The position numbers and the translations under genes were made by a program. Source: Methanocaldococcus infernus ME (GTDB taxonomy: Archaea; AGJL01; Methanococci; Methanococcales; Methanocaldococcaceae). Taken from it: DNA of 64,000 bases. This document shows, one piece after another, positions 4,619 to 64,000 of the stretch (position 1 is the first letter of the stretch; each line of letters opens with the position of its first letter). The notes below the pieces were generated by a model that saw only the letters and a list, made by a program, of their open reading frames with translations, did not search any database and was not told the DNA's origin. Where the stretch lies: assembly GCF_000092305.1 (NCBI RefSeq), contig NC_014122.1:372001-436000 (forward strand). Direction: 5' to 3'.

Positions 4619-5692
4619 TTATATAACTCTTTTTATAGCATTCCAAACTAAAAAGCTCTGTGGCTTTAAAGTTCCTTTAATAGGATCTAAGAATAAAATG
4701 TTCTTCTTGACTAAGTAAATATAAATTGGAGTAGGAATTTCTTTTCTGTCTATTTCATATTTCTCTTTGAACAATTTGAGAGCTTTAATTATCTCTTCTT
4801 TTTTTAACTCAATAGTTTCACTTTCAATTTGTATTTTTGGTTTTGAGTAATTTAAGATCTCTAAGAATGTACTTAACTTTTGAGTAGTATCGTTTAGTAA
4901 GTAGTCTAATATTTCTTTTAGATTTTTAATTTTGAGTTCTTGGATGACGTAAATTATATCTACAGGTTTCCCTCCAACGTAGGAATAAATTAATTCTTTT
5001 TCTTCATTTGAGAGTTTTTTATCTAAAATGCTTTCAGCTAAAAAATCCATAAACTTTAAAGCAGTCTCTTTATCAAAGTCGTCAACTAATAAATATTTAG
5101 CTCTACCGTTTAACATCGCTTCATTATAAACTTTCTCAATAAATAAAGAATCTGAACTTAAACAAAATACATAAGATAAATGAAGCTCTTTAGTTAAACT
5201 TATGAAGTAATTAAAAAGCTCATAAATCAAAAAGCCGTTAATTTTTAAATCCCCTATCTTTTGAAGCTCGTCTAAGATAATTATCGGCTTCTTTCCCTCT
5301 TTCCTAAGCTCTAATAAAATATTAGTTATATACCTAAAAACGTTCTTCTCTTCTTTTTTTGTTAATAACACTTCTAAAACGTTCTTAGGAACAGGAATTC
5401 CAAAGAGAACAGAAGAATCTTTAATTAAACCTTTAACCAATTCAATAGGGTCTTTATCCTCTTCATACTCCTCAAAGAGAACCTCTATAAAATCTTCATA
5501 TTTAGAAATAAAGTATCTTCTAAGATTTATGTAAAACACCACATATTTATCATCAAGCTTATTAATAACTTCGTTAATTAAAGCTGTTTTCCCACTATTA
5601 ATAGGCCCATAAATAAAATAGATAAAATTAGGCTCAAACTCCAAAATAGAAAGAATTTCTCTAATCTCTTTCTCTCGGTTAAAAAATCTCAT
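4619..5692 (-). CDS. Archaeal ATPase (ATPase_2 / STAND-like family), CpG-rich
   Basis: AAA-related P-loop ATPase of 357 residues, of the kind present in many copies in Methanocaldococcus and other archaea. Walker A is GPINSGKT at 29-36. Walker B is PIIILDELQ with D141-E142. The C-terminal third resembles the winged-helix domain of this family. Function is not established; relatives are often linked to mobile or regulatory roles. A clear GGTGATCAA ribosome site precedes ATG 5692. The gene has about 13 CpG dinucleotides in 1.07 kb, whereas neighbours have almost none, suggesting recent acquisition. Confidence 0.85.
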
Positions 5693-28005: not shown

Positions 28006-28090
28006 TGCGGGGGAGGGGATTTGAACCCCCGAACCCCTACGGGACCGGATCTTAAGTCCGGCGCCTTTGGCCAGGCTTGGCGACCCCCGC
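28006..28090 (-). tRNA. tRNA-Leu (anticodon UAA)
   Basis: Class II tRNA of 85 nt. The 7-bp acceptor GCGGGGG/CCCCCGC is followed by discriminator A, as expected for leucine. The anticodon stem CCGGA/TCCGG encloses the loop CTTAAGA, giving anticodon TAA. A long variable arm follows, and the T arm is GGGGGTTCAAATCCCCT. CCA is not encoded (the next bases are CTA). GC content is about 68%, in keeping with a hyperthermophile. Confidence 0.96.
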
Positions 28091-28120
28091 TCAGAAGGTA
28101 TTATGTAAAATCACATAAGG

Positions 28121-28140
28121 AATATATAAACTTTTCGGTT
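28121..28140 (-). promoter_or_regulatory. tRNA-Leu promoter (BRE and TATA)
   Basis: Read on the minus strand, AACCGAAAAG followed by TTTATATATT is a near-consensus archaeal BRE plus TATA box. It ends about 31 bases upstream of the tRNA 5' end, so the transcript would carry a short leader removed by RNase P. This is the clearest core promoter in the window. Confidence 0.75.
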
Positions 28141-28190
28141 TTAAGTTGTTTCCAAAAATATATTAATTATGCCAATTAAGATACTTGATA

Positions 28191-28200
28191 TTTATATTTA
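28191..28200 (+). promoter_or_regulatory. Candidate TATA box for DUF531 and the ATP synthase operon
   Basis: TTTATATTTA lies 23-32 bases before the DUF531 ATG. With the usual archaeal spacing, transcription would start at or next to that ATG, giving a leaderless or nearly leaderless message. The lack of a Shine-Dalgarno sequence before this ATG (GAGCAAAAGTT) agrees. Confidence 0.45.
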
Positions 28201-28222
28201 AAACGATTTTAGAGCAAAAGTT

Positions 28223-50113: not shown

Positions 50114-51583
50114 ATGGGGATCAGTGTAAAGATAAAAATTTTGGCTGGATTAGGAATATATGTGTTACTATTAATAATTTTTTCTATCATAGTGCTTCTG
50201 AATTTCGGATTTTCTCCAATAATTGTTATATTTGATGTTTTGTCAATAGTACTTTTTGTGATATTGTTTATTTTTTATAAGAAAACCATCTTTGATCAGT
50301 TGGATGAGTTAGTAAGAGTTATGGGAGAGTTTGCCGAAGGTAAAACCGATATTGTGAGAAACGAAAAAATAAAGTTTGATCCAAATGATGAAATTGGAAA
50401 AATTTACTATAGTGCTAAAAAAGCATATATTACCTTTAAAGAGGAATGTGAAAAATGTAAAAGAATGAAGGAAGACGTTGAAAGATTAATAAAAGATATA
50501 GAAAAGGTTATGGATGCTGTAGCTAATGGAGACTTAACTGTAAGAATGTCTGAAACTGGGAGAAGAAATATAATTCAGAAGAAAGTTAATAGAGCCTTAG
50601 ATCTTTTATCTAAGACTGTTTTTGATTTACTATCTGTTGTTATTAAATTAAAAGAAGAAGTAAATTCTATTAAAGAAGAAGTTGAAAGATTAAAAGAAAC
50701 CTCTGATCAAATTGCCGATGCTGCTAACCAAGTTGCTGTAGCTGCAACAGATCAGTCTAATAAGTTACAAGATATAACTCAAGAGTTAGAAGATGTTAAT
50801 AAGTTAGCCAACGATGCTTACAACTCAGCGTTAGAAGGAGTTGAAGCTGTTAAATCTGTAGAAGAAGCTTCTCAGGTTGGGGTTGAGAAGGTTGAAAACG
50901 CTATAGAAACAATGCAAAGAATAGCTAACGTTATTGATGAATTAGGAAGAGCGTTAGAAGAGCTTGGTAAGAAGAGTCAGAAGATTAATGAGATTACAGC
51001 TTTAATTAAAGATATCGCCGAGCAAACAGGTTTATTAGCTTTAAACGCTTCTATTGAAGCTGCAAGGGCTGGAGAGGCTGGAAGAGGTTTCGCTGTAGTT
51101 GCAAGTGAAATTAAAGGCTTAGCCGAAGAGATTGGAAAGTCTGTAGACGACATCAATAAGACAGTTGAAGAGATAAGAGAGGCTATAGAAAAAACAATAG
51201 ACTTAGGATTAACTGGAAAGAATGAAGTTGATAAAGGAGTTGTTGCTATAGATGAGGTTAATAACGCATTCTTAAAGATAAAAGAGGCTGTTGATAAAGC
51301 TCATGAGAAGATAGAAGGAATTAAACAAGCTGCTCAGAACGTAACTGAGAATGTTGAAAAAGCTTTAAGAGATGTCCAAGATGTTGCTTCAATCTCAGAA
51401 GAGTTCGCTGCCACCGCTGAGGAATTAACAGCTTCAACTGAAGAGTTGAACGGAGCTATTGACAACTTTAGAAAATTAATAATTGATTTAGAAGAAACTG
51501 CTAAGATAGCTGATGAATTAGCTAATAGATTTAAAATTGATGAAGCTAAAATTAAAAAAATGGCTAAAAATGGAAAACTATAA
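50114..51583 (+). CDS. Methyl-accepting chemotaxis-like transducer without ectodomain, CpG-rich
   Basis: A 489-residue transducer. Two membrane helices lie at about 8-32 and 36-56 with only a few residues between them, so there is no external sensor domain. A HAMP-like linker covers about 57-110. A long helical signalling domain follows, with the highly conserved hairpin '[20 protein letters not shown]' and '[19 protein letters not shown]'. It would signal to CheW/CheA, yet no che genes are in the window. About 22 CpG in 1.47 kb, against nearly none nearby, suggest acquisition. Confidence 0.9.
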
Positions 51584-62255: not shown

Positions 62256-62942
62256 TCACCAGTAGCATCTTATCTTAACATTAGTTAAATATCTTTCAGC
62301 CACTTCTTTTAACTTTTCCAACTCTTCCCTTTTAGGCATTGGAAACTCTCTAAACCTTTTATCATAAGCTTTTGTAGGATCATACTGTTGTATCACATAT
62401 AAGTTACAATTAATATTTTTTGCTATCTCCTCTATATCTTTACTATCCATAAATTTTGGGATGTAGGTAGTTCTACACTCTACATAAACCCCAGCCTCTA
62501 AAGAGAGATTTATGGTTTTTAATATTTTATTTTTAATCTCTTCCTCATTTTCTTTACATCTTGTTAGCTCCCTATATTTATAGAATGGGCATTTAACATC
62601 AATGGCTATATAATCCAAATATTCCAAAATTTTGCTAACAATCTCTGGCCTTGTTCCATTAGTGTCCAACTTAACCAAATATCCTAAGTCCTTAGCCTCT
62701 CTTGCTAATTCAATAATTTCCTCTTGTAAAGTTGGCTCTCCCCCTGAGATCACTATGGCTTCAGTGAGAAGAGGATCAACCCTTTTTAAAAACTCTTTGA
62801 CAGTTATACTATGTTTAATTTTTAAAATATTCTCTAAGTTATGACAGTATGAACATCTAAAATTACATCCTGAGAGAAAGATGACTGTAGAAGCCTTTTT
62901 TGGAAAATCTATAGTTGAAAACTCCATCCCAGAAACTTCCAT
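62256..62942 (-). CDS. nrdG: Radical SAM activating enzyme, NrdG/PflA type
   Basis: A 228-residue radical SAM protein. The cluster motif is CNFRCSYC near residue 26, and 'VISGGEPTLQEE' follows. It resembles the glycyl-radical activase of the anaerobic ribonucleotide reductase (NrdG2 type). The reductase gene is not in the window, so the partner is inferred. ATG 62942 follows AAGGGTTACCT. The kinase gene ends only 10 bp upstream. Confidence 0.85.
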   Translation of the reverse strand: MEVSGMEFSTIDFPKKASTVIFLSGCNFRCSYCHNLENILKIKHSITVKEFLKRVDPLLTEAIVISGGEPTLQEEIIELAREAKDLGYLVKLDTNGTRPEIVSKILEYLDYIAIDVKCPFYKYRELTRCKENEEEIKNKILKTINLSLEAGVYVECRTTYIPKFMDSKDIEEIAKNINCNLYVIQQYDPTKAYDKRFREFPMPKREELEKLKEVAERYLTNVKIRCYW

Positions 62943-62952
62943 AGGTAACCCT

Positions 62953-64000
62953 TTATAGCTCTTTTCTAATTCTATTTAGTAAAACTTCAAGTCTTTCAAT
63001 GGTGTTCTTACTTATTGGAATGTCTTCTTTAATTAAGTATTCTATGTCTCTTATAGCTTTTTCTAATTCTTTTTTGTTCTCTTCTGATTTAACGTAAGCT
63101 TTTAGGGTTTCTAAAACCTCCAATAACCCAACCTTATCGTTGGCTTTTGCACAGTTTAAAGCGAGCTTTGTTGAAGTTTCTACAAACTCTTTTATAAGTT
63201 TTTCAATTTCTTTTTTATCAGTTGATTTTTTAATTAGTTCTGTTGTTTTTGTTAGAGTTTCTTCAAGTTTTTCTTTTTCTTTAATTAACTCTTCTAATGA
63301 ATTCAAAGCTTCTAAAACTTCGTCCATTGATTGGAATCTATCTTCTTTTCTCTTTGCTAAGAACTTATCAAATATTCCGTTAAATATTGATAATTTTGGA
63401 TTAATCTTTGACGGAGGGGTTGGTTTAATACTTGGATTTATTATTTTTGATATTACTTGAGCAGGGGAAGAACCTTCATAAGGCAGTTTTCCTGTTAATA
63501 ACTCGTAAAATAAAACTCCTAACTGATAAATATCTGTTCTCTCGTCTGTTTTTCCATATTCTCCTTCGTCTATTTGTTCTGGAGCTGAGTATAGTAACGT
63601 TAAAGCCTTTGCCGATGTTGTTGAAGATTTCGCTCCTATCTTAGCCAATCCCCAATCAGAAATTTTTGGAATTATGTCGGAGGTTAGTAAAATATTAGAT
63701 GGTTTTATGTCCCTATGAATTACTCCCCTTGAATGAGCATGTTTTAATCCTTCAGCGATCTGTTTTACGATCCTTAAAGCTTCTTTTGGATCCAAGGGCT
63801 TAGGATACTTATCCAAATCTCTAATAATTTTTCCATTTAATTTAACTCCATCAATATATTCCATCTCAATGTGAGGAATTGGCTCAATATAAGCGTCATA
63901 CATTTTAACGATATTTGGATGGTTAAGATTTTTCCAAGCTTCTATTTCTTTTAGTAGCGATTTCTTAGCTTTTTCATTAAGAGAAGGGATTTTTAACGCT
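62953..64000 (-). CDS. Hanks-type Ser/Thr protein kinase (start beyond window), CpG-rich
   Basis: Eukaryote-like protein kinase, 5'-truncated by the window: the frame stays open to 64000, so ATG 63903 is internal. Visible are the beta-3 lysine (ALKIPSL), the alpha-C glutamate (LLKEIEAW), the catalytic loop HRDIKPSN, DWG in place of DFG (KISDWGLAK), and the activation segment ending SAPEQ. A charged helical, probably coiled-coil tail follows (roughly the last 130 residues). No transmembrane segment is visible. About 19 CpG in 1.05 kb contrast with its neighbours. Confidence 0.92.
   Translation of the reverse strand, partial: ALKIPSLNEKAKKSLLKEIEAWKNLNHPNIVKMYDAYIEPIPHIEMEYIDGVKLNGKIIRDLDKYPKPLDPKEALRIVKQIAEGLKHAHSRGVIHRDIKPSNILLTSDIIPKISDWGLAKIGAKSSTTSAKALTLLYSAPEQIDEGEYGKTDERTDIYQLGVLFYELLTGKLPYEGSSPAQVISKIINPSIKPTPPSKINPKLSIFNGIFDKFLAKRKEDRFQSMDEVLEALNSLEELIKEKEKLEETLTKTTELIKKSTDKKEIEKLIKEFVETSTKLALNCAKANDKVGLLEVLETLKAYVKSEENKKELEKAIRDIEYLIKEDIPISKNTIERLEVLLNRIRKEL

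Follow-up and report, generated by a model that had tools for sequence, protein, structure and literature searches.

A membrane-spanning Ser/Thr kinase at the end of an archaeal ESCRT operon in Methanocaldococcus infernus

The Ser/Thr kinase gene cut by the edge of the 64,000-nucleotide stretch analysed here (the window; bases 372001-436000 of the single-contig, 1,328,194-bp genome of M. infernus ME) encodes, in its visible part, the inner half of a sensor that spans the membrane, and it closes an ESCRT operon. We consider it reasonably probable that this kinase is the signal receptor of a Main-clade ESCRT operon and acts through phosphorylation on ESCRT remodelling, and that the operon has long occupied this site in the genome.

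The kinase gene and its product

The reading frame at 62953-63999 (minus strand), open at the window edge, corresponds to the C-terminal 348 of the 745 aa of a receptor-type Ser/Thr kinase (62953-64000, minus strand); the complete gene (G000:C1:434953-437190, or L003:154-2391) reaches 65190 in window numbering. The Pfam Pkinase model matched residues 8-223 of the window fragment at 1.9e-42, and the full protein scored 168 bits against a gathering score of 31.7, which identifies it as a Hanks-type kinase. From the β3 Lys (IALK, at the edge) the kinase domain extends via HRDIKPSN and DWG to SAPE (63330-63999, minus strand) and holds most of the CpG dinucleotides; it is followed by a C-terminal helical tail of about 120 aa (62953-63327, minus strand). 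Outside the window lie the Gly-rich loop, a single transmembrane segment, a pair of PEGA repeats and a signal peptide. The full-length protein thus begins with the signal peptide and continues through the two PEGA repeats, the transmembrane segment and the kinase domain to the tail, a layout based on Pfam for the PEGA and kinase domains and on hydropathy for the N-terminal hydrophobic, signal-like segment and the single transmembrane segment ahead of the kinase domain.

An earlier sequence-only reading had proposed a Ser/Thr kinase with DWG instead of DFG and a helical tail, and all three features were confirmed. The catalytic motifs are all intact (LGEGGFGKV, IALK, HRDIKPSN, DWG, SAPE), and DWG is present in nearly all related Methanococcales kinases; it is therefore a family trait rather than a degeneration, and we rejected it as the mark of a pseudokinase. 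An AF2 model of the fragment, computed from 3 sequences, was poor in the kinase domain, where pLDDT averaged 52, and the tail was predicted as helical with pLDDT values of about 80-90. The published PCI/wH-like fold of the tail was not reproduced, the AF2 model of the fragment giving no fold match for this region. A second 40-bp DNA match, at G000:C1:1310946, falls in the part coding for the Lys-rich tail and was taken as chance.

The ESCRT operon

Upstream of the kinase, tightly packed on one strand, are genes for Vps4, a 203-aa coiled-coil protein, an ATPase_2/MJ1010-like ATPase, a 206-aa coiled-coil protein, a 574-aa coiled-coil protein and a 197-aa protein. Read towards the kinase, which is the last gene, the operon beyond position 64000 has the order arCOG08177-like, arCOG09748-like coiled-coil/wH, ESCRT-III a, ATPase_2, ESCRT-III b, Vps4, kinase. 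Vps4 matched the Pfam Vps4_C model with 34.8 bits against a cut-off of 21.3, and no MIT domain appeared among the matches listed for it (25 of 26 Pfam families). The two proteins taken as ESCRT-III lack a direct match to Snf7. A long α1-α2 hairpin was predicted in the protein model, the fold search placed CdvB2, CdvB and Asgard ESCRT-III among the top matches, all weak (E at least 0.33), and the profile matches to CdvB2 (0.07) and CdvB (0.26) were likewise weak. In the divergent locus of G007, the proteins at the corresponding positions match Snf7 (8e-5 and 2.5e-4), and the M. infernus proteins match these in turn, again weakly. We regard the ESCRT-III identity of the two coiled-coil proteins as supported, but weakly so. 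Two further operon proteins are putative arCOG09748 and arCOG08177 members, fitting these in size, order and coiled-coil content and assigned to them by size, order and description.

This gene content corresponds to a published type. Main-clade archaeal ESCRT loci combine Vps4, ESCRT-III, arCOG09748 (helical, with coiled coil and wH) and arCOG08177 (Cas2-like plus TBP-like), and often include a membrane Ser/Thr kinase whose C-terminus forms a small helical domain, together with a phosphatase; Methanococcales are placed in the Main clade in section 5 of that paper (Makarova et al. 2024 mBio, PMC10936438). In gene content and synteny the M. infernus operon matches this already described type. 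In an Acidilobaceae MAG, a Cas2/TBP-like, a wH-like and an ESCRT-III-like gene (33% to the 206-aa protein) stand together (L147, 4563-8100); the contig is binned as Thermoproteota, which may reflect either a wider reach of the Main-type locus or contamination of the bin.

The sequence-only reading had named FHA and defence genes as possible neighbours, which our analysis did not support. The operon proteins showed no FHA domain. PADLOC kinase profiles of the mad6 and PD-T4-6 types do match, but these are general Hanks-kinase matches, those of Vps4 and ATPase_2 are generic ATPase matches, and the operon contains no recognised partner gene of MADS, PD-T4-6 or BREX, its proteins giving only generic ATPase and coiled-coil matches. 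We accordingly discarded a defence system, and a role of the kinase in antiphage or other defence is highly improbable.

Distribution of the kinase and its partners

Our survey covered 36 Methanococci genomes, and a phylum-wide scope gave the identical 36. A Vps4 orthologue (73-82% identical) occurs in 13 of them, in addition to a divergent one in G007, and complete Hanks kinases were found in 14, namely the same 13 and G026, an 81%-complete bin with a kinase and without a Vps4 orthologue. The other genomes contained only short RIO/Bud32-type matches. Hanks kinases are indeed unusual in Methanococcales, as had been supposed from the sequence: their occurrence is patchy, and in the window's own genus just 2 of 14 genomes have a complete one, the full locus being confined to M. 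infernus (G000) and G013. Across the 36 genomes, the counts for kinase and Vps4 are 13/1/1/21 (both genes in 13 genomes, each without the other in 1; Fisher 8e-8), and those for kinase and PP2C phosphatase 13/1/3/19 (Fisher 3e-6), values that are descriptive because related genomes are not independent. The suggestion of a phosphatase among the neighbours is borne out as co-occurrence but not as linkage in M. infernus, where the PP2C gene, at G000:C1:1237186-1237761, lies 0.8 Mb from the kinase on the record; in most relatives it adjoins the kinase. The operon order recurs in as many as 12 other genomes, in some of them on contigs that are broken.

It could also be envisaged that the protein is a general kinase for surface or stress sensing that adjoins the ESCRT genes without acting on them, and second-family paralogues scattered outside ESCRT loci in G021, G028, G030, G031 and G035 favour this. 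Such dispersed paralogues are, however, limited to genomes with an ESCRT locus or to one 81%-complete bin; moreover, in M. infernus the end of Vps4 and the kinase gene overlap, and in almost every relative the kinase comes after Vps4. We consider such a bystander role unlikely.

CpG composition and history of the locus

We counted exactly 19 CpG in the 1048 bp of the kinase fragment (o/e 0.75), in agreement with the earlier estimate of about 19 in 1 kb, compared with 95 CpG (o/e 0.05) in the whole 64-kb window, and none of 84 comparison genes reaches this density. The genome is extremely CpG-poor, with 825 CpG and 341 of 497 genes devoid of any in the 493-kb sample on which the genome-wide statistics rest. 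CGN arginine codons are almost absent from the same sample. The kinase gene itself is a mosaic, with an o/e of 0.72 in the kinase half versus 0.22 in the extracytoplasmic part, and its 25 CpG are followed by 2.2 kb with none. Among the other operon genes, ATPase_2 has an o/e of 0.69, and not one CpG occurs in Vps4 or in either ESCRT-III gene. Of the operon, only the kinase half and the one ATPase_2 gene are CpG-rich, and the neighbours beyond position 64000 do not make up a CpG-rich island. The core kinase of almost all other genomes checked has a CpG content near the local background, which makes the anomaly a peculiarity of M. infernus.

Several observations concern CpG in this genome more generally. 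CpG is kept in a minority of genes, including EF-1A, CdhC, archaellin-like, MCP, ATPase_2 and surface-protein genes. The gene for a methyl-accepting chemotaxis protein (MCP; 50114-51583, plus strand; o/e 0.63) is the most CpG-dense of the 84-gene set, and a tight CpG cluster within CpG-free surroundings at 28008-28204 is possibly an RNA gene. The operon ATPase_2 is a member of a multi-copy family, with DNA 85.5% identical to the copy at 540778. This proliferating ATPase_2/MJ1010-like family numbers some nine good copies as well as fragments and has a member inside the ESCRT operon; CpG-rich members lie at window positions 4619-5692 (minus strand), G000:C1:540778, 1233422 and 1058946.

High CpG content is no proof of foreign origin. 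EF-1A, which is clearly vertically inherited, has an o/e of 0.58, and every one of its CpG spans a codon boundary. Its DNA shares 87-89% identity with that of congeners, and in each congener checked it exceeds its surroundings in CpG. The CdhC and archaellin-like genes, too, are rich in CpG. The kinase, unlike EF-1A, has NCG codons and few C-ending codons.

The position of the operon speaks for a long residence. Directly downstream of the kinase lies a radical-SAM gene (62256-62942, minus strand) that serves as a synteny anchor. Its sole orthologue in G012 (49%, within the genus range of 49-59%) abuts a wH gene that is broken and contains internal stops; order and orientation are those seen in M. 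infernus, and ESCRT-III, Vps4 and the kinase are gone. Because G012 keeps this remnant beside the same radical-SAM gene, the ESCRT locus was most likely already at this site in the common ancestor of the two. The resolution of trees of Vps4, the kinase and the wH protein was too low for M. infernus to be placed.

The sequence-only reading had proposed that the upstream neighbours could form a transferred, CpG-rich island. Conservation in synteny throughout Methanocaldococcus with normal composition, which would have told against this, is not what we found, as the full locus occurs in 2 of 14 genomes of the genus; the contrast of the kinase half and ATPase_2 with a genome near 0.05 and the closer similarity of the wH protein to G035 and G021 (65-66%) than to the congener G013 (48%) also point towards an island. 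Nevertheless, the zero-CpG core genes, the G012 remnant and the operon order conserved in other genera led us to reject a transferred island for the operon, synonymous sites and trees revealed no recent donor, no relative is unusually close at synonymous sites, and EF-1A illustrates that a vertical gene can be CpG-rich. A recently transferred foreign island comprising the kinase and its neighbours is quite improbable.

A narrower event has a chance only somewhat short of even: recombination with an unsampled relative may recently have exchanged only the kinase gene, or just its kinase half, within the old operon. Consistent with this are the sharp boundary between the CpG of the kinase gene and the CpG-free stretch beyond it, the near-background composition of the core kinase elsewhere, the abundance of paralogous receptor kinases in relatives, and a four-fold-site identity to G033 and G035 slightly higher than that for Cdc48. 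On the other hand, no donor was found, native genes can be CpG-rich too, and the tree puts the kinase inside the core-kinase family without singling out a partner. Such an exchange concerns history and is compatible with the receptor-kinase explanation. With moderate confidence, we think that the kinase half and ATPase_2 were probably replaced or acquired more recently than the rest of the operon, which would explain their CpG content.

Exchangeable outer parts and the helical tail

In nine core or near-core kinases the half comprising kinase and tail is 67.6-93.6% identical, and most of the outer parts have no alignment at E≤1e-3. According to Pfam, the outer parts carry two PEGA copies in M. 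infernus, four in G013 and six in G028, a WD40-type propeller plus PEGA in G021, DUF2341 in G035, and the multi-TM DUF4013 in G030 and G025; DUF4013 and propeller proteins also stand as separate genes next to kinases. In G033, a core kinase and a second kinase are split over several frames and appear broken or frameshifted (L029:10481-15433).

A profile of the tail recovered every complete kinase and one further protein, a TPR protein beside the G013 kinase (L019:14762-16543, plus strand) that has no kinase domain, ends in the receptor-kinase tail and lies within the ESCRT locus. Since this kinase-free protein shares the tail, the tail may be a docking module. More broadly, and tentatively, Methanococcales may possess modular receptor-kinase/ESCRT signalling, in which a constant kinase with its docking tail would be combined with exchangeable sensors (PEGA, β-propeller, DUF2341, multi-TM DUF4013), external signals would control ESCRT-III/Vps4 remodelling, and the tail would be a portable ESCRT address, also carried by the kinase-free TPR protein.

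Proposed mechanism and related systems

In the receptor-kinase explanation, the outer Ig-like/PEGA region would sense or bind a cell-surface signal or partner, and its state would be relayed by the single transmembrane segment to the PknB-like cytoplasmic kinase. The helical tail would dock the kinase on an ESCRT-locus protein, as the TPR protein suggests, and the kinase would phosphorylate ESCRT components, for example the wH protein, the acidic tails of ESCRT-III or Vps4. Phosphorylation might then switch membrane remodelling by ESCRT-III/Vps4 on or off, and the unlinked PP2C could reverse it. Signal-gated ESCRT remodelling of this kind is what we infer from the sequences.

The closest relatives of the system are the Main-clade ESCRT loci with Ser/Thr kinase (STK) and phosphatase (STP) of PMC10936438, with which it shares Vps4, putative ESCRT-III, arCOG09748-like and arCOG08177-like genes in one locus and a membrane-associated Ser/Thr kinase with a C-terminal helical domain, with PP2C in relatives. 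The portion of that paper used here does not discuss several features of M. infernus: two ESCRT-III genes, which in 4 genomes adjoin or flank an ATPase_2 gene, the unlinked PP2C, sensor swapping on a constant kinase and the CpG mosaic. The kind of system is thus known already, and in the literature, to the extent covered here, we found no discussion of the sensor-swapping pattern or the CpG mosaic. The kinase also resembles the bacterial receptor kinases PknB and StkP in being single-pass with repeats outside and a Hanks kinase inside, and its best PDB matches include PknB (3f69, 8.7e-34). It differs from them in an N-terminal PEGA rather than a C-terminal PASTA extracytoplasmic domain and in the extra helical tail; the NCBIfam PASTA-kinase equivalog model gave 201 bits against a cut-off of 450. 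With CdvABC of TACK archaea the operon shares a Vps4 that matches the CdvC profile (3e-64) and the weak CdvB2/CdvB matches, but this Vps4 lies below the CdvC cut-off (217 of 650), the partner genes are different and a receptor kinase is present.

Implications

We know of no experimentally shown function of the ESCRT machines of euryarchaea. The near absence of CpG from this genome makes gene-level composition mosaics unusually readable, and the tight co-occurrence of kinase, PP2C and ESCRT makes their link testable. If receptor kinases control ESCRT, a culturable methanogen would offer a direct test of the role of euryarchaeal ESCRT and would allow one to ask whether ESCRT was signal-regulated before eukaryotes.
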